This document shows positions 9,341-64,000 of a DNA stretch of 64,000 nucleotides, one piece after another. The number at the start of each line of letters is the position of its first letter. The stretch's first letter is position 1. A program made the translations under genes and the position numbers. The notes under the pieces are model-generated. The model did no database searches. It worked only from the letters and a program-made list of their open reading frames with translations, and was not told where the DNA came from. This stretch comes from Cladocopium goreaui (lineage: Eukaryota; Sar; Dinophyceae; Suessiales; Symbiodiniaceae), in NCBI GenBank assembly GCA_947184155.2, contig CAMXCT020001480.1, positions 212,001-276,000 of the forward strand, given 5' to 3'.

Positions 9341-9586
9341 TTCAATTGATTTCAATTTACTTTTAATTTACTTTCAATTGATTTCAATTGATTTCAATTG
9401 ATTTCAATTTACTTTTAATTTACTTTCAATTTACTTTCAATTGATTTCAATTTATTTTTAATTTACGTTCAATTTACTTTCAATTGATTTCCATTTACTT
9501 TTAATTTACTTTCAATTTACTTTCAATTGATTTCAATTTACTTTCAATTGATTTCAATTTACTTTTAATTTACTTTCATTTTTTTT
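9341..9586. repeat. Low-complexity TTTACTTTCAATT repeat
   Basis: Irregular alternation of TTTCAATTGATTTC and TTTAATTTACTTTC with a period near 10-12 bases, directly abutting the 246-bp array. Confidence 0.85.
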
Positions 9587-11945
9587 TCACTCCCAAAAGT
9601 TGGTGCTCACAATAGAGTACCATCCAAACAATTATATTATTGAGTAACTGAGCCACTCATGAGGTACACCCTTGAAAAATTGTCTGGATGCTGTTTTTTA
9701 ATAAGGGTTTAATAAGGCATCTAATTATTTGGGAAACCTTGCATTTTAAAGTTTTATCACAACTATGGCTTTCTAAAGTGAAAGGACCAGCTTTACCCAA
9801 AGAAAGGTGGAGAAAGGGTTTCGTTTTTTTTTTCACTCCCAAAAGTGGATGCTCACAATAGAGTACCATCCAAACAATTATATTATTCAGTAACTGAGCC
9901 ACTCATGAGGTACACCTTTGAAAAATTGTCTGGGTGCTGTTTTTAAATAAGGGTTTAATAAGGCATCGAATTTTTTGGGAAACCTTGCATTTTAAAGTTT
10001 TAACACAACTATGGCTTTCTACAGTAAAGGGGCCAGCTTTACCCAAAGAAAGGTGGAGAAAGGGTTTTGCTTTTTTTTTCACTCCCAAAAGTTGGTGCTC
10101 ACAATAGAGTACCATCCAAACAATTATATTATTGAGTAACTGAGCCACTCATGAGGTACCCCCTTGAAAAATTGTCTGGATGCTGTTTTTTAATAAGGGT
10201 TTAATAAGGCATCTAATTATTTGGGAAAGCTTGCATTTTAAAGTTTTATCACAACTATGGCTTTCTAAAGTGAAAGGACCAGCTTTACCCAAAGAAAGGT
10301 GGAGAAAGGGTTTCGTTTTTTTTTCACTCCAAAAAGTTGGTGCTCACAATAGAGTACCATCCAAACAATTATATTATTCAGTAACTGAGCCACTCATGAG
10401 GTACCCCTTTGAAAAATTGTCTGGATGCTGTTTTTAATAAGGGTTTAATAAGGCATCTAATTATTTGGAAAGCCTTGCATTTTAAAGTTTCAACGCAAAT
10501 ATGGCTTTCTAAAGTAAAGGGACCAGCTTTACCCAAAGAAAGGTGGAGAAAGGGTTTTGCTTTTTTTTTTCACTCCCAAAAGTGGGTGCTCACAATAGAG
10601 TACCATCCAAACAATTATACTATTCAGTAACTGAGCCACTCATGAGGTACCCCCTTGAAAAATTGTCTGGATGCTGTTTTTTAATAAGGGTTTAATAAGG
10701 CATCTAATTATTTGGAAAAACCTTGCATTTTAAAGTTTTATCACAACTATGGCTTTCTAAAGTGAAAGGACCAGCTTTACCCAAAGAAAGGTGGAGAAAG
10801 GGTTTCGTTTTTTTTTCACTCCAAAAAGTTGGTGCTCACAATAGAGTACCATCCAAACAATTATATTATTCAGTAACTGAGCCACTCATGGGGTATCCCC
10901 TTGAAAAATTGTCTGGGTGCTGTTTTTTAATAAGGGTTTAATAAGGCATCTAATTATTTGGGAAAGCTTGCATTTTAAAAGCTTTAACACAAATATGGCT
11001 TTCTACAGTAAAGGGACCAGCTTTAGCCAAAGAAAGGTGGAGAAAGGGTTTTGTGTTTTTTTTCACTCCCAAAAGTGGGTGCTCACAATAGAGTACCATC
11101 CAAACAATTATACTATTCAGTAACTGAGCCACTCATGAGGTACACCCTTGAAAAATTGTCTGGATGCTGTTTTTTAATAAGGGTTTAATAAGGCATCTAA
11201 TTATTTGGGAAACCTTGCATTTTAAAGCTTTAACACAAATATGGCTTTCTAAAGTGAAAGGGCCAGCTTTACCCAAAGAAAGGTGGAGAAAGGGTTTTGC
11301 TTTTTTTTTCACTCCAAAAAGTTGGTGCTCACAATAGAGTACCATCCAAACAATTATATTATTCAGTAACTGGGCCACTCATGAGGTACCCCTTTGAAAA
11401 ATTGTCTGGATGCTGTTTTTTAATAAGGGTTTAATAAGGCATCTAATTATTTGGAAAGCCTTGCATTTTAAAGTTTTATCACAACTATGGCTTTCTAAAG
11501 TGAAAGGACCAGCTTTACCCAAAGAAAGGTGGAGAAAGGGTTTCGTTTTTTTTTTCACTCCAAAAAGTTGGTGCTCACAATAGAGTACCATCCAAACGAT
11601 TATATTATTCAGTAACTGAGCCACTCATGAGGTACCCCTTTGAAAAATTGTCTGGATGCTGTTTTTTAATAAGGGTTTAATAAGGCATCTAATTATTTGG
11701 GAAACCTTGCATTTTAAAGCTTTAACACAAATATGGCTTTCTAAAGTAAAGGGGCCAGCTTTAGCCAAAGAAAGGTGGAGAAAGGGTTTTATTTTTTTTT
11801 CACTCCCAAAAGTGGGTGCTCACAATAGAGTACCATCCAGACAATTATATTATTGAGTAGTTGAGCCACTCATGAGGTACCCCCTTGAAAAATTGTCTGG
11901 ATGCTGTTTTTTAATAAGGGTTTAATAAGGCATCTAATAAGGGTT
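9587..11945. repeat. 246-bp tandem array with alternating subtypes
   Basis: About 9.6 units, each beginning in a T-run plus TCACTCCCAAAAG and containing CAATAGAGTACCATCCAAAC, CACTCATGAGGTACCCC and ACCAAAGAAAGGTGGAG-like words. Two subtypes alternate: type 1 (TTTTATCACAACTATGG, AAAGTGAAAGGACC, GGGTTTCG) in units 1, 3, 5 and 8, and type 2 (TAACACAAATATGG, AGTAAAGGG, GGGTTTTGC) in units 2, 4, 6 and 9, with unit 7 intermediate. The period is 82 codons, so minus-strand frames of 81 aa recur; I treat these as spurious. Confidence 0.95.
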
Positions 11946-56423: not shown

Positions 56424-56669
56424 AATATAACCTAGATTAATAGATCATTTGATGATTAAATCTAATAGATTTTTCCAGGACATTTATCTAGTAGAAATTT
56501 ACTAAATGCCTAGATTAACAGATTATTAATAGATCCTCGGGGGATCATAGGGATGTGACTTGTGAGCAGATCCTCATCGTGGTGATCAGCTAGCAGTATC
56601 ATGAGGAATCCCTAGGGGCCGGTTGTGCACTATGTAGCATGAAATTACTAGATTTACTAGTGATATATT

Positions 56670-56788
56670 TACCCTCTGGTAAGCTAACATAGCTATGGAA
56701 AAATATGGAAACTGACCATCTTTTCAATGGGTAAATCAACTATTTCACTGGGCCGTTTTAGATAGCTATGTTAAATTACCAGAGGGTA
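56670..56788. mobile_element. TIR element, family A
   Basis: TACCCTCTGGTAAGCTAACA to GTTAAATTACCAGAGGGTA. Confidence 0.85.
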
Positions 56789-57059
56789 TATAGAATGGGG
56801 ATTACTAGATTTCTAGGATTTCTATAAATATAGAAATATAGTGATATCACTAGATTCACTATTGTCACTAGATAAATTTATATTTATAGTATATTTCTAT
56901 ATTGTCACTAGATTCACTAGTCGCTTTGAATCGTTTTTCAGCGGCCATTTGAGCGAATCCCTTGTCAGCCACGGTATCTCCAAGAAACATCGAGTCTACC
57001 CTACTGCCAGTGGGTAGATGTCCCACTCACTTACAGTTTGTTTGTTGTTGGATCGGAAT

Positions 57060-57159: not shown

Positions 57160-58041
57160 ATGTCAGAGGTTCCCTGTCACAACTGCGGTGGAAAGTGGCT
57201 GGCGACTGGTGGAAATCTCTGTGGGGTGTGCCGGAGTGTGGATAGACTTGCTTCCATTATCAGAAGCAATCAGACCCCACCTGAGCGCTACGAGGCAGTG
57301 CTCTTGAAATTGCGGGTGTGGATATCTGATATACTGGACCTTGGTGAGGTCGCACGGGGGGTAGTGCCAGACCCCTCCTTTGCCCGCCGGGCCAAGGGTG
57401 GACCACAACCACCTCCTCCACCTCCAGAGGGTGGAGCACCACCAGGAGCCACTCCCAAGGCGTCTGCCTTAGCGCCGCCACCGCCACCACCACCAGCCGT
57501 GCCAGGGACTGGTGGTAGAACTTCTGAGCCGGAAAGAAAAGAAGGTGAGCCTGCCGCCTCGTCCTCAAGTCGCCCAACAAAGGAGAAGAAGAAGGACCGC
57601 AAAGACAAAAGTCGCCGTCGCTCCAAGAGCCCTAGCCACCGAGATCGGAAACGGGACAGGCGCTCAAGGAGCCGCCGTCGCCCAAAGTCAAGGAGCCCTT
57701 TGCCGCGGTTGGCAAGTCCCGTCCGTCCACAAGGAGTGAAGAGTGAGGACGAGAGGAGTGAAGATCCTGCAAAGCTGCGTGCAAGGAAAGCCGCCCCTGT
57801 GTCACCCCAAAGGTCTCCTCCTCGGGGCCGCTGTGATCGAGTGGCACTGCCGAGGTTTGCTGAAGGACGCAACTGGTCGGGCCCTATTCGTGCTAGGCCA
57901 CGCCAGCCACCCCCCGGGTGTGGCAAGCACTTCAACAAGAACAAAGGCGTCACAAAGAGGAAGAAGCGGGCTGAGTTCAAGGCAAGGACTCGCAGATTCA
58001 ATCAAGGGGCTGATCGCTGGAGGAGAACACGGCAGGGGTAG
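57160..58041 (+). CDS. Retroelement ORF1, zinc-knuckle and SR-rich protein
   Basis: 293 aa from the ATG at 57160 to TAG at 58039. The N-terminus has CHNCGG (residues 6-11) and CGVC (about 25-28), a four-Cys zinc-ribbon-like pair. A helix (about 33-65, ERYEAVLLKLRVWISDILDL) follows, then poly-Pro stretches (about 85-125), an Arg/Ser-rich domain (about 145-195, RRSKSPSHRDRKRDRRSRSR) and a basic tail. Likely a nucleic-acid-binding Gag-like protein; function inferred. The stop is immediately followed by the next ATG (TAGATG). Confidence 0.75.
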   Translation: MSEVPCHNCGGKWLATGGNLCGVCRSVDRLASIIRSNQTPPERYEAVLLKLRVWISDILDLGEVARGVVPDPSFARRAKGGPQPPPPPPEGGAPPGATPKASALAPPPPPPPAVPGTGGRTSEPERKEGEPAASSSSRPTKEKKKDRKDKSRRRSKSPSHRDRKRDRRSRSRRRPKSRSPLPRLASPVRPQGVKSEDERSEDPAKLRARKAAPVSPQRSPPRGRCDRVALPRFAEGRNWSGPIRARPRQPPPGCGKHFNKNKGVTKRKKRAEFKARTRRFNQGADRWRRTRQG

Positions 58042-59454
58042 ATGCCCCCGAAACTTCGTAGGCCTGCTGCTGCCCTGGCTCGGGGTAGACGGGCTCCTGG
58101 GTTGCGCCGTCCCGCAAAGGCGGTGGATCCGGGGCTGGGTGATTTGGCCGAGGAGATTCTAACGGCTGACCTCACCCTGGAACAGTGCAAAGGATTGCAG
58201 GACATTGAGGTTATTGCTGGGTCGTATTGGGACGCCCCGGCAACAGCTGCCCTTCGGGTTCAGGACGTAGGCCTGAAAGGCGGTGAGGTAGTGCTGCAAT
58301 GTCAGGTGTTAGGTACCCAGAACGAAAGCCTTCTCCGGGATGCTTCAAACCGGGACGGGAGGGTGATCAAGGTTCACCTGTGCCCTCGGGAGTGCCCTGG
58401 CTCTCCTCACGCCGAAGGTTATCTCCACGTGACCAAGTTCAGACGTCTAGGTGCAGAGAGGCTGCCTTGGATGAGCAACATGGTTCCAGAAGCCCCAGAA
58501 GGACCGCGCCGAGACGAGCTTGCCGATCTTCGAGCCGACTTCGAGCGCAGAGTGGGCGATCCAGGCCAAGGGCGCGTGGATCTGGGAGAGAGGTCTCCTG
58601 GCAGAGAGAGAGAAGAGAGGCAGGTCAAGAAGAGGAGCCGTGGGCGAAAGAAAAAGAAAGACAAGTTGAAGGTCGACGGAAGGAAGGATCTCAAACTCCT
58701 TTTTCAGGATACGGGAGTAGACCCAGATCCAGTTGTGCGGCGACGCTTCAAGCGCCGCGCCACGAAGTTGTCACGGCGGAAAGGAAAGGATGTCAGCAAC
58801 AGTTCTTCGTCGGCAACCACGAGTACCAGCACACTGGGTCAAGAGGACGCAGGGATCTTTGGAGGAGTGGGGAAAGTGCAGAGGATAGGACGAAAGCTCC
58901 CAGGTGTGCTTACCTTGGGGGCTCTCGAAGAAGCCTCCGAGGCGCTCATCACGCAAGAGGGGGGGCTCTTCGAGACGGGGGCGGCGGCTCTCCACCCCTA
59001 TTCCTGCGCTATTACCGGATGCAACTAGCATCTCGGATGTCCCCTGCAATGGGGCGCGAAGCTCACGCTCTGTCCCAAATCCTGGACAGCCTCCTGAGAG
59101 GCCGTGTGGCCGAGGGGATGGACATTGGCGCACAGCGTCTCAAGAGCCTAGAAATGATGGCTCAAGGCGCCCACTGGACAGTGAGCCAGCAACAAGAGCT
59201 TCTGCCCCGAGAAGGAGCGAGCATGTCCACCACTACCGAGTTCCAGCTGGCGTCGCGCCAGGCGCGGGAAGAAGGCAAAGCGAAGCTGGATGCCACTCGC
59301 CCCTACGGCGCCAGGGGGGTCGAGCTCAGGGAAAGGAGAGGAGTGGACCAAGGGGTCCGGGAAGAAAGGGGGAGGCAAATACAAGGGGCAGAAGGGCGAC
59401 GGAAAGAAGAGCGAGCAGGACAAGGGCGACGCCAAGAAGGCGAAGGCAGGATGA
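58042..59454 (+). CDS. Retroelement ORF2, gag-like, with two frame breaks
   Basis: Begins at the ATG directly after the ORF1 TAG. The first frame is intact to TAA/TAG-type termination at 59026-59028 (328 aa): an ordered part (LTLEQCKGLQDIEVIAGSYW) and a Lys/Arg-rich part (KKRSRGRKKKKDKLKVDGRK). The downstream helical region RYYRMQLASRMSPAMGREAH and QRLKSLEMMAQGAHWTVSQQ lies in another frame from about 58985. Beyond a G6 run at 59314-59319 the first frame resumes with a Gly/Lys tail (GKGEEWTKGSGKKGGGKYKG) ending at TGA 59452-59454. The two breaks compensate each other. Either sequence errors or decay; the protein as read is broken. Confidence 0.65.
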
Positions 59455-61499
59455 ACAGTGCAGGTCAAATGTTGAGGATGGCAGATGAGAGAGAGGAGCT
59501 CCCCCTGCTGGCACCGGGGGGGGCGACTTTGACCGCTGGGGAGCTGAGGGGTGGACAGCCACTTGACGAATTGCAGCGCTGTCCTCCTTGTGGGCTCCTC
59601 CAGGACTTTTCACTGAGTGGCATTGCATGTGGGGTGTCAGCGGGAGGTGATCGTAATGAGTCTCCGGGTCTGACACCTCAAATTGAATTGACAGATGCAG
59701 CGACTGGTAGTCAGGCAGATCCTGGCATGGACACACCTGCGAAGCCGGGTGCGTCGGTGCCTGCAGTGGCGGCCGCTACTAGTGACTCTTTTTTAGCCTT
59801 TGCTGGGCGCACTTTTTCTGAAATGGGTGGACCCTTATTTGAATCCCTTCAGTGTTATTTATGGAGTAGGCATGGCAAGATCATGACCATGGCAAAGGAT
59901 TCTATTTTCCCTTTGCCCCTGGAGGGGTACCCGGGGGTCCACCCACAAATGTCATCTTGGCTGGGTAGCATTCTGCTGGCGTTAAACTCCCTCTATGGAG
60001 CGGGGTCGCAGACGACGGCGGGGCCGACCACAGTGCAAAAAAGATTAGTGAGTTCTGTGGTGGTTTCTCTTGAGCGCATGTGGGGCTGGACTGAAACTGT
60101 TCCAAAGACAGGGTTCGGGGAACTATTTGATGTAAAAGGTGTAGACTATCGCGGGGAAGAAGTTAAGCTGGCAAAGAGCTTCAACTGGGCTTGCATTGCA
60201 GGGGCACTTCCCCAAGAAGTGGGCACTTTGAACCTACTTGATTTCTGTACTGGCGGGTGTCGTCATTATGTTGAAGCTTTTGAGGAATACTTCCTTCCTG
60301 ATGAACAACAAACTATTGGCCGACCCCCTCGTATTCTTGTTGATCAGTCGGATTGGTTTGACGTTTGTAAGGGGCTCATTGGTACAGGGATTTGTGGGGT
60401 GCTGCCACAGCGGCTCCTCCATCATGTAGGGGACATTGCTTTGGAAAACGGACTTTTTGCTGTGAGTAAAAATGAATTTGATGATTCAGGGCTGGAACTT
60501 CATCGACTCATTATGAACATGGTGCCGCTGAATAAATTGTGTCGCTCACTAAGGGGAGACATAGGCACTCTCCCTAGTATTGCTGGCTTCTCTGCTTTTT
60601 ATTTGGACGACTCTGAGGTTGCTGTGATGTGTAGCGAAGACATAAAGTGTTTTTACTACTTATTCAAAGTCCATGATACATGGATGCGGTTCATGGGATT
60701 TGCTCGTGAAGTACCTTCGGGCCTGGTACCTCCAGAGTTTGCAGGACAGTCATGCCGGCTGGTTGCCCGGGTGTTACCAATGGGTTTTGTAAATAGTGTT
60801 GCACTGGCCCAGCACATCCATCGAAATGTTGTCAGGTGGAGTTCGAGCCCAGCTGGTTTGGATCTTCGGGGCCACTGCGAGCTTCGGCGCGACAGGCCGG
60901 CGCCATTGACGGATGTCATGTTTCGGGTTTACCTAGACAACTGGGATGAGATTAGGAAGGTTGACAGAAACTTGGTTGACGATGTACTGGGTTCCCCGTC
61001 ACCCCAACAGCTTTGTCTCCGTCAAGAATATGAAGATCTGAACCTTCCACGCCACCCCAAAAAAGCTGTTGAAAGTGCCTGCCGGGCCGAGATTCAGGGT
61101 GCCCTCCTGGACGGGAGGGCTGGCGTGGCATACGCCAAACCTGAGAAGATCTTGAAATATATGGGGTTGGCATGGGAACTCGTTCAGCGGGATGGCGCCT
61201 CGATGCGGGAATTGCAGGTAGTGGCAGGGGGTTTTGTCTATATTACCATGTTTCGGCGTGCGCTTCTCTGTGCGCTGAATGAGATCTGGGAACATATTGA
61301 AAGTATGAAGGCTTACCCCCCAGTGGTCCGCTTGCGTTTGCCCCGTGGTGTCAAGCTTGAGCTCCTGCGCTTCATGTCGCTGGTACCCCTAGCGCAAATG
61401 GATTTTCGGATGCCTATGTGCCCCCATGTCACCGCGAGCGACGCGTCCTCCTCTGGGGGAGGAATTTGTAGGTCAATAGGCTTGGCTGCCTATGGCTGA
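59451..61499 (+). CDS. Reverse transcriptase with the first strand of RNase H
   Basis: Starts at the ATG at 59451, overlapping the ORF2 stop as ATGA. An unrelated frame is open further left, but the Gly/Lys ORF2 tail shows that is not coding. About 682 aa. RT motif A is EDIKCFYYLF (Asp about 397), motif B LPMGFVNSVALAQ (about 442-454), motif C VYLDNWDE (Asp 496, Asn 497 in place of the second Asp), then ILKYMGLAWE. The end is ASDASSSGGGICRSIGL (Asp about 664), the first beta hairpin of RNase H. TGA at 61497 cuts the frame, which continues without other stops to 63149. Confidence 0.85.
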   Translation: MNSAGQMLRMADEREELPLLAPGGATLTAGELRGGQPLDELQRCPPCGLLQDFSLSGIACGVSAGGDRNESPGLTPQIELTDAATGSQADPGMDTPAKPGASVPAVAAATSDSFLAFAGRTFSEMGGPLFESLQCYLWSRHGKIMTMAKDSIFPLPLEGYPGVHPQMSSWLGSILLALNSLYGAGSQTTAGPTTVQKRLVSSVVVSLERMWGWTETVPKTGFGELFDVKGVDYRGEEVKLAKSFNWACIAGALPQEVGTLNLLDFCTGGCRHYVEAFEEYFLPDEQQTIGRPPRILVDQSDWFDVCKGLIGTGICGVLPQRLLHHVGDIALENGLFAVSKNEFDDSGLELHRLIMNMVPLNKLCRSLRGDIGTLPSIAGFSAFYLDDSEVAVMCSEDIKCFYYLFKVHDTWMRFMGFAREVPSGLVPPEFAGQSCRLVARVLPMGFVNSVALAQHIHRNVVRWSSSPAGLDLRGHCELRRDRPAPLTDVMFRVYLDNWDEIRKVDRNLVDDVLGSPSPQQLCLRQEYEDLNLPRHPKKAVESACRAEIQGALLDGRAGVAYAKPEKILKYMGLAWELVQRDGASMRELQVVAGGFVYITMFRRALLCALNEIWEHIESMKAYPPVVRLRLPRGVKLELLRFMSLVPLAQMDFRMPMCPHVTASDASSSGGGICRSIGLAAYG

Positions 61500-63152
61500 A
61501 CCGCCCAGGCCGCCCTAGTCCGGGGAGAGTCTGGTGATGCCTCCTCTGCCATTGAAGTTCTTACAGTGGGGTTATTCGATGGCATTGGCGCGTTGCGCGT
61601 GGCTGTTGATGTATTGCAAGTACCGGTTGCGGGTCATGTGAGCGTGGAATGCAACGCGTATGCCAATCGCGTGTTGGAAAGTGCTTTCCCTGGGTCTCAT
61701 GTAGTGAACACCGTACAGGATGTCACGGCTGGAGAAGTGCGGCGATGGGCTTGTGAATTTTCTTCTGTGGGGGTGGTCTTGATCGGAGCTGGCCCCCCTT
61801 GCCAAGGGGTGAGCGGGTTGAATGCCGACCGTAAAGGCTCTCAGAAAGACTTGCGCAGCTCCTTGTATAAGGAAGTTCCTCGGGTGAAAGCGCTTGTGGA
61901 GAACTTTTTCCCATGGGCGCAGGTTCACCTTTTTATGGAAAGTGTAGCTTCTATGGACGCAAAGGACCGCGCAGCCATGTCTGCCGACCTTGGCTTACTT
62001 CCCCTGCGGGTGGACGCAGCTGGAGTGTCACTTGCTCGGAGGCCGCGACTGTACTGGCTTACCTGGGAGTTGGCCTCAGAGCCAGGAATGCTCCTGCAGG
62101 AGCCAGTGGGAATGGGATGGCACGAACTGCGGGAAATCACGCTGGAGGCTGAGGTTCCCCAGCGCGATTTTCTTGAGGCTGGGTGGTTCATCCACCCTGC
62201 TGCACGGCTCGCCACCTTCACTACGTCGCGACCCTCGCCTACCCCTGGCCGGCGACCAGCTGGCTTGGCCTCTTCTGACGCCGCCACACTCCAGCGCTGG
62301 AAGGATGATTGCCACAGATACCCCCCTTACCAGTACAAACCTGAATTTTGCCTCCATCATGCAACCTCCCCCGTGCGCGTGGCTAGCATCGTCGAGCGTG
62401 AGGTGATTTTGGGCTTCCCAGCACACTATACCGCGCAATGCGTTCGGAAACAGGAGCGTCACCTTGAATGGGTGAGCGATCTTCGTAAAACCTTACTGGG
62501 GAACACCTGGTCCGTCCCGGTTGTGGTGTGTTTGCTCAAACAACTTTTCGAGAGATTGGGTTTGGTGCCTTTTGTCCCTATCTCCACCCTCCTTGCGCGG
62601 ATGACTCCTGGCTGTGGGAGTACCCTTCAAAGCATTTTGCAGCGCCCTCCGGTCAAACGTGAAGACCCACAAATTTTCCCTGAAAATGACTTGTCGCGAC
62701 GGTTAGCTGGCTTAGTGTCAGTGAAAGGAGAGGACCTCATGCTCCAGGCTCCCACGGAACACCTGGTCCGGTACCACCGGCTTCGGACAAGCATCCCTAG
62801 CAAGCTCTGGAAATGGAAAGAAATTGCGGGGTGGGCTTGGAAAAGCAAGGAGCACATCAACCAGCTTGAAATGCGCTCCGTTCTGACTACCTTGCGGTAC
62901 CTGATCTTGAAGGAAAAGCTGTCTGGATGTCGTCTGATCCATTTGACGGATAGTCTTGTTGTCCTCCACGCCTTAAGTCGAGGTAGAAGTTCTAGCAAAC
63001 GCCTCCGTAGAACCATCATGCGCATTAATGCCCTCCTCCTTACTGCTCACCTCCATCCTGTGTGGGCCTACGTCCACACAGCTCAAAACCCAGCAGACCG
63101 GCCATCGCGCCGGGTGCGTTCTATGAAATGGCGAAAAACCAAAAGCGGTTAG
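61500..63152 (+). CDS. C5-cytosine DNA methyltransferase (DNMT3-like) embedded in RNase H
   Basis: Same frame as the RT after the TGA at 61497; 61500-61565 is open and a GTG at 61566 is only an arbitrary start. Numbering from 61566: motif I GLFDGIGALR (2-11, SAM binding), acidic E29 (SVEC), motif IV GAGPPCQG with catalytic Cys79 (61800-61802), motif VI as ESV (125-127, usually ENV), motif VIII RRPRLYW (158-164), motif IX EREVILGFPAHYT (277-289), motif X LLGNTWSVPV (310-319). The GFPxHYT and GNxWSVPV forms are DNMT3-like. Residues about 410-516 carry the rest of RNase H: Glu435 (NQLEM), Asp462 (HLTDS) and Asp511 (NPADRPSR). The methyltransferase has all core motifs and appears intact. It overlaps the recombinase ORF by 25 bases. 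Confidence 0.9.
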   Translation, partial: TAQAALVRGESGDASSAIEVLTVGLFDGIGALRVAVDVLQVPVAGHVSVECNAYANRVLESAFPGSHVVNTVQDVTAGEVRRWACEFSSVGVVLIGAGPPCQGVSGLNADRKGSQKDLRSSLYKEVPRVKALVENFFPWAQVHLFMESVASMDAKDRAAMSADLGLLPLRVDAAGVSLARRPRLYWLTWELASEPGMLLQEPVGMGWHELREITLEAEVPQRDFLEAGWFIHPAARLATFTTSRPSPTPGRRPAGLASSDAATLQRWKDDCHRYPPYQYKPEFCLHHATSPVRVASIVEREVILGFPAHYTAQCVRKQERHLEWVSDLRKTLLGNTWSVPVVVCLLKQLFERLGLVPFVPISTLLARMTPGCGSTLQSILQRPPVKREDPQIFPENDLSRRLAGLVSVKGEDLMLQAPTEHLVRYHRLRTSIPSKLWKWKEIAGWAWKSKEHINQLEMRSVLTTLRYLILKEKLSGCRLIHLTDSLVVLHALSRGRSSSKRLRRTIMRINALLLTAHLHPVWAYVHTAQNPADRPSRRVRSMKWRKTKSG

Positions 63153-64000
63153 AGGGGCGCAGTAAGCAGGAGAGGCAAAAAGTGCGCAAGCAGATGGGTA
63201 CGCTGAGAAGCTTGACTATCCAACCTCGTACGCGAGCTAGATATGACAAGGCAAAAGACAAGTTTTATTCTTTTCTTCGAGCAAATGATCTCCAACTTCC
63301 TCGGGAGTACTCTCAGCTGGACGGACTCCTGTGCGATTATCTTGAACACCTTTGGTCTTCAGGAGAGGGCCGGGGACTGGCTTCAGACACCCTGGCCAGT
63401 TTGCAAGACACCAGCCCTCGGGTCAAAGGCCACATTCCAGGGGCCTGGCGATTGCTCAAGACCTGGCACGTCAATGAGATCCCCTGCCGTGCCCCACCCC
63501 TCCCTGTGCGGGTGTTAGAAAGTCTCGTTGGCTATTTCCTGTTCCATGATGATCCCCTCATGGCTCTGTCTTTGTTACTGGGCTTCTTTGCTATGCTTCG
63601 GACTGGGGAATTATTGGGTATTCGTAACAAAGATGTTACCATTGACCCTCGTGGGCAATCGGCTGTTATTTCATTGGGTTACACAAAAGGTGGCAAACGG
63701 GCTGGCGCTGCGGAGAGCGTCTCTGTCACTGTAGTGGAAGTCATTCGCCGACTTCACCAATGGAAAAATAGTTCGTCATCTGCCTCTAAACTTACCCCCT
63801 CCCCTCACGCCTGGCGAAAAGCTTTTACCAACGCGTTGGAGTCATTAGCCCTTGGGCCATGGGAATTCCGTCCGTATTCTCTTCGCCGTGGTGGGGCCAC
63901 ATTTTGGTTCAGTAAGCATGGATCGCTCGACCGGATCCTCCTGCAAGGGAGGTGGATGGCTGCAAAAACCGCACGTACTTACCTGAATGAGGGTTTAGCT
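63128..64000 (+). CDS. Tyrosine recombinase (truncated by window end)
   Basis: From the ATG at 63128, open for 291 codons to the window edge. Catalytic residues: Arg158 in FAMLRTGELLGIR, a GYTKGGKR beta-hairpin Lys, Tyr250-x-x-Arg253 in RPYSLRRGGATF (His replaced by Tyr), Trp276 in LLQGRWM, and the nucleophile Tyr285 in TARTYL. This is the Arg/His-x-x-Arg/Trp/Tyr set of phage-integrase-type recombinases used by DIRS elements to insert circular DNA without target duplication. The basic N-terminal part (KRLEGRSKQERQKVRKQ) may bind DNA. The stop codon is outside the window. Confidence 0.9.
   Translation, partial: MAKNQKRLEGRSKQERQKVRKQMGTLRSLTIQPRTRARYDKAKDKFYSFLRANDLQLPREYSQLDGLLCDYLEHLWSSGEGRGLASDTLASLQDTSPRVKGHIPGAWRLLKTWHVNEIPCRAPPLPVRVLESLVGYFLFHDDPLMALSLLLGFFAMLRTGELLGIRNKDVTIDPRGQSAVISLGYTKGGKRAGAAESVSVTVVEVIRRLHQWKNSSSSASKLTPSPHAWRKAFTNALESLALGPWEFRPYSLRRGGATFWFSKHGSLDRILLQGRWMAAKTARTYLNEGLA

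Follow-up and report, generated by a model that had tools for sequence, protein, structure and literature searches.

Among the DIRS-like retrotransposons, the closest described counterparts of the element considered here are the SymbioDIRS-Dnmt3 elements of de Mendoza et al. (2018), for which purifying selection, activity, and two structures differing in the order of their Pol domains have been reported (PMC5890265). The methyltransferases known earlier from DIRS elements are adenine types (PMC5890265), and canonical DIRS1-like elements have reverse transcriptase (RT), RNase H and methyltransferase in Pol, plus a tyrosine recombinase (PMC3266345). The window, a 64,000-nt stretch of the Cladocopium goreaui genome (contig CAMXCT020001480.1, positions 212,001 to 276,000), contains a DIRS-like element occupying its last 6 kb and about 1 kb before that. 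With a probability of roughly 0.8, and relying partly on predicted structure, it is an interrupted copy of the SymbioDIRS-Dnmt3 kind in which a DNMT3-like C5 cytosine methyltransferase and a linker are nested in the Pol RNase H, between its strands b2 and b3, and the RNase H halves would close around them. The parts of Pol concerned, in window positions, are:

60000..61415, + strand: reverse transcriptase part of Pol, in the extent folded here, with YLDN at 60930-60941; assigned from fold matches and homologues, with no Pfam match
61416..61445, + strand: RNase H strand b1, with the first catalytic Asp at 61440-61442; assigned from AlphaFold secondary structure and the conserved Asp
61455..61484, + strand: RNase H strand b2, on the N-terminal side of the interrupted hairpin; assigned from AlphaFold secondary structure
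61497..61499, + strand: in-frame TGA of the window copy, between b2 and the methyltransferase
61533..62570, + strand: C5 cytosine DNA methyltransferase domain, DNMT3-like; Cys 61800-61802, Glu 61938-61940
62571..62801, + strand: 77-residue linker from the methyltransferase to RNase H b3, with a near-invariant S.KGED at 62718-62735
62802..63131, + strand: RNase H C-part, with b3 (62808-62837), aA with Glu 62868, b4 and Asp 62949, aB, aD, b5, and Asp 63096

The acidic residues assigned to RNase H are the Asp of ASDAS (61440-61442), the Glu of NQLEM (62868-62870), the Asp of HLTDS (62949-62951) and the Asp of NPAD (63096-63098). The LFDGIGA motif of the methyltransferase begins 44 residues after ASDAS, and the other three acidic residues are all downstream of that domain. 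A sequence-only reading of this DNA had proposed such a split, with a full C5 methyltransferase between the catalytic residues, and its coordinates prove right to within a few bases. It had also held that both folds keep their key residues, which agrees with what is seen in homologues. A first search gave 728 matching proteins, the best-scoring 120 of which were aligned unselected; several have Skav names, presumably denoting S. kawagutii. Within these 120, no protein lacks the first Asp; the methyltransferase Cys is found in 119, the Glu and the second Asp in 116 each, and the third Asp in 111. The catalytic residues of the two enzymes, six in all, occur together in 111 proteins. The remaining nine appear to be gene models that are truncated or mispredicted. 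Spacings are nearly invariant among the 111 intact proteins, with 120 residues from first Asp to Cys in 109, and 27 from Glu to second Asp and 49 from second to third Asp in 110. Fixed residues at fixed spacings across homologues indicate that the split arrangement is not due to chance.

Two further searches (best 120 of 129 matches and best 120 of 450) brought the total set to 333 proteins, of which 284 match a profile of the region and 212 have both RNase H halves. Unselected counts refer to all 120 of the first homologue list and all 284 of the profile-matched proteins; sets A1 and A2, by contrast, hold 71 and 78 proteins chosen from 238, with broken or odd gene models excluded. The sequence-only reading had asked for a survey of other copies for the same insertion point, and this is where they have it: in 209 of the 212 the halves enclose 80% or more of the methyltransferase, in the other three 30–80%, and in none less than 30%. 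The four acidic residues expected of a type 1 RNase H occur in order (Asp-Glu-Asp-Asp) in 207 of the 212, the exceptions being three with a gap at the last position, one with His there, and one with Ala at the first. In the copies seen, then, the first catalytic Asp is separated from the other three by the methyltransferase and its conserved 77-residue linker. Median pairwise identity among the 111 intact proteins is 0.518 both for a 326-residue RT stretch and for the methyltransferase, and distances over the two are correlated (r 0.79), as would be expected of an old insertion inherited with the element. Judged by these alignments, both enzymes retain their catalytic residues in copies that are only about 50% identical.

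In the methyltransferase itself, LFDGIGA, PPCQG (Cys 61800-61802), ESV (Glu 61938-61940), RRPRLYW and LLGNTWSVPV can all be read, and are taken to be C5 methyltransferase motifs. There is a Pfam DNA_methylase match (E 5.5e-05), and the best PDB sequence matches are to DNMT3B and then DNMT3A (E 2.9e-08 and weaker). DNMT3 is also closest in fold, and the C5 catalytic residues are present, in agreement with the earlier DNMT3-like assignment. A published tree places SymbioDIRS-Dnmt3 within Dnmt3 (PMC5890265).

The case that the flanking halves belong to one RNase H depends on predicted structure and, to a lesser extent, on coevolution. Residues are numbered here within the modelled and aligned region, where b1 is 41-50, b2 is 54-63 and the elements of the C-part fall within 505-605. 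In two AlphaFold models the two early strands and the late elements together read b1 b2 / b3 aA b4 aB aD b5 aE. The order of elements in RNase H is b1 b2 b3 aA b4 aB b5 aE. The predicted secondary structure thus has the type 1 element order, with strand partners deduced from that order rather than from coordinates; b3 should require a partner strand, and b2 would be the natural one. The sequence-only reading had proposed structure prediction as the check on whether the split strands assemble around the methyltransferase, and the order of elements in both parts fits RNase H, with the pairing of strands deduced only. Its suggestion of a nested two-domain enzyme is supported by this order and by the conserved split residues, which are predictions and comparisons rather than measurements.

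Couplings of residues 41-63 to residues 84 onward were computed from 211 sequences (187 effective). The two strongest are 57-532 (b2 to aA) and 57-510 (b2 to b3), and the RNase H C-part accounts for five of the top 10, where 2.0 would be expected (p 0.03). In a scan of 222 registers, antiparallel b2-b3 ties for first with a parallel register, and parallel b1-b4 is third, after two antiparallel registers; when scores are smoothed across neighbouring registers, b2-b3 (568) is fifth and b1-b4 (500) second. The controls b1-b2 and b4-b5 have the expected orientation. Overall, coevolution lends weak support to a nested RNase H.

Several results weigh on the other side. The RNase H halves match no Pfam family, whether apart or joined; Pfam also misses the RT of the same protein, so the non-match points to divergence more than to a missing RNase H. 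Searching PDB with a profile of the joined halves likewise found no RNase H. (Its only matches were to RING-box proteins, namely RING-box protein 2, with a best E of 0.0033, spanning profile positions 9-70 of 142, or 15-70 in the weakest; these were judged to be chance.) In an HH alignment to E. coli RNase HI the probability is just 0.65 (percent), and 60 shuffled controls reach 0.9; the Glu and second Asp are in register in this alignment. Fold lists name DNMTs, other C5 methyltransferases and two RTs, and no RNase H, and are uninformative on this point because one domain fills them, none of their rows being known to extend over the RNase H part. The couplings are non-significant for the top 20, 30 and 50 (p 0.19, 0.13 and 0.18), with p 0.05 for the top 100, and b3-b4, which are non-adjacent in RNase H, score 1.18, near the 1.25 of b2-b3. 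CG depletion is not significantly different between DIRS elements with and without DNMT (PMC5890265), a point which returns below. The window copy carries a stop. Finally, no methyltransferase-free Pol or contiguous RNase H was found among the 333 proteins (best 120 each of 728, 129 and 450 matches), even though one search used the two RNase H halves joined, with a length limit intended to favour short Pols.

This last absence is weak evidence, as the lists hold the best 120 only, and DIRS elements without DNMT do exist in Symbiodinium (PMC5890265). Of the 333 proteins, 129 are without one or both motifs and are mostly fragments; one with an apparently contiguous RNase H (P0241) turned out to be a motif artefact. 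Scans of viral contigs and of prokaryote genome contigs gave no relative. With no methyltransferase-free relative found, insertion into a formerly whole RNase H is something we can only infer. A second, intact RNase H was not found by Pfam in the element's other open reading frames (ORFs), yet Pfam misses the RNase H and RT of Pol as well.

The b2-b3 turn lies at an end of the RNase H sheet distant from the active site, and both ends of a C5 methyltransferase domain are close together; such a site can therefore tolerate an inserted globular domain, with the RNase H halves predicted to close up round it. A single Pol chain of this kind would keep polymerase, RNase H and CG methylation in fixed proximity at the nascent complementary DNA (cDNA), so that new cDNA might be methylated during or just after removal of the RNA template, ahead of integration by the recombinase. 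Nesting would also hamper loss of the methyltransferase, as RNase H would not survive an imprecise deletion. Isolated methyltransferase domains from two distantly related SymbioDIRS-Dnmt3 copies carried out de novo CG methylation in yeast (PMC5890265), which indicates that such a domain folds by itself, and methylation of cDNA was proposed by de Mendoza et al. (2018) from the domain's location in Pol and its activity (PMC5890265). It is tempting to extend this to a whole retrotransposon family that captured a host DNMT3 in the RNase H b2-b3 hairpin and became an interlocked RT/RNase H/methyltransferase machine, methylating its own cDNA as the RNA is removed, with the nesting locking the gene in. 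This wider proposal is tentative, and we would give it somewhat less than an even chance. If it is true, lock-in would explain why no methyltransferase-free copy turned up, and would offer a concrete reason for retention where the capture and retention of host genes by retrotransposons is an open question. The cDNA self-methylation proposed in 2018 would become directly testable, with two nested active sites in one protein, and a discontinuous RNase H would replace a simple row of domains.

The alternative that survives best accepts the nesting and places the activity elsewhere: the methyltransferase may have chromatin or host DNA as its target, for instance where the element inserts, instead of the element's own cDNA, its position in Pol being an accident of capture with no coupling to RNase H. 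The isolated domains act in yeast without RNase H, on both genome and plasmid (PMC5890265), and the lack of a significant difference in CG depletion noted above (PMC5890265) is unlike what strong self-methylation would predict. Fusion to RT and RNase H, on the other hand, positions the methyltransferase at the cDNA, and the equal median identity of RT and methyltransferase among copies (0.518) also speaks against an uncoupled role. We regard this alternative as doubtful while still a serious competitor.

A different parsing of the protein would put the early ASDAS strands outside RNase H altogether, with a complete RNase H after the methyltransferase, the linker Asp of S.KGED (62733-62735) as its first catalytic residue, and the order RT - methyltransferase - RNase H. 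This Asp is indeed present in 111 of 111 intact copies and in 211 of the 212 proteins with both halves, and its distance of 45 residues from the Glu is not absurd for an RNase H. However, AlphaFold predicts no strand of at least 3 residues in 426-504, with low confidence around the motif (pLDDT, the model confidence score, 62-65 for residues 471-500), as against two confident 10-residue strands within 41-63; the strongest couplings of those early strands are to b3 and aA; and ASDAS..GGG has the pattern usual for the b1-turn-b2 segment of an RNase H. This parsing is accordingly rated quite improbable. Still less probable is that the layout is a relic, its RNase H non-functional as a fold, Pol perhaps cut up as retroelement Pol proteins often are, and the conserved acidic residues serving otherwise: recognition by no profile would suit it, while the constant spacings (27 and 49, kept by 110 of 111 copies) and Asp-Glu-Asp-Asp in 207 of 212 point to selection on a catalytic centre.

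The sequence-only reading had treated 59451-63149 as one frame and made no mention of a stop. The frame is not open in the window copy: the TGA at 61497-61499, its single interruption, splits Pol into two ORFs. In the intact close copy P0001 (16 differences in 1109 compared residues, the stop counted as one) and in others, the Dnmt3-type methyltransferase and RT share one unbroken frame. Another protein, P0121, which differs at 7 of 580 residues, has its last residue just ahead of the TGA, and two copies may thus have this stop in common. Its ending may be due to descent from a dead copy, to read-through, or to the same locus having been sequenced in another assembly, and the three are indistinguishable here. 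The RT region has its fold matches among retroviral and pararetroviral RTs. Its motif C reads YLDN, where the usual RT motif C is YxDD and the second Asp is the position read as Asn; the Asn is found in 110 of 110 readable sequences from the 111 intact copies, and in 109 an Asp follows it two positions later.

The rest of the element comprises three further ORFs:

57160..58041, + strand: upstream ORF, basic and low-complexity; putatively Gag-like, by position only; no Pfam match
58042..59028, + strand: second upstream ORF; no Pfam match
63128..64000, + strand: tyrosine recombinase ORF; PHROG integrase match, E 1.9e-07; no Pfam match; runs off the window

The Pol frame ends at 63152 and the recombinase ORF begins at 63128 in another frame, an overlap of 25 nt. 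Elements of this type are expected to have terminal repeats ordered A - coding - B - A - B, and the 3' end of the present one falls outside the window. GC content in the last 6 kb is 0.52–0.59 (2-kb steps), compared with 0.36–0.44 between 2 and 56 kb. An inverted repeat with 37-nt arms, 86% complementary, is located at 56666-56792, shortly upstream of the first ORF. Elsewhere in the window, positions 2-2421 hold tandem repeat arrays whose unit is roughly 147 bp (the first 2 kb have a GC content of 0.58, in AT-richer surroundings), and positions 9579-11938 hold a 246-bp tandem repeat array of 9.6 copies with 93% matches.

Comparison with known systems places the element closest to SymbioDIRS-Dnmt3, which it resembles in being DIRS-like, in a Pol frame that holds a Dnmt3-type C5 methyltransferase as well as RT, and in having its tyrosine recombinase in a separate ORF (PMC5890265). 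The portions of that paper's running text covered here have no statement of a methyltransferase interrupting RNase H, and the word 'inserted' is absent from them; a limited literature search likewise found no report of such an interruption. As a guess, the domain order may have been taken in 2018 to be RT - DNMT - RNase H, the brief early portion of RNase H having been missed. From canonical DIRS1-like elements, with their order RT - RNase H - methyltransferase (PMC3266345), it differs in that the methyltransferase is inside RNase H, and in place of an adenine-type enzyme downstream a C5 enzyme follows the first catalytic residue and precedes the second. KnitGypsy-Dnmt3 of a charophyte also has a Dnmt3-related domain in a retrotransposon Pol, but is a long terminal repeat (LTR) Gypsy element and, according to the paper, an independent capture (PMC5890265). 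The catalytic domain of DNMT3A/3B is the best match in fold and sequence (24% identity over 271 residues for the top match), the difference being that here it appears to lie in a loop of another enzyme of a retrotransposon Pol. As to novelty, a Dnmt3 in a dinoflagellate DIRS Pol has already been published (PMC5890265), and its nesting in RNase H appears new. The element is of a known kind, and its new part is the nested RNase H, a well-supported prediction.
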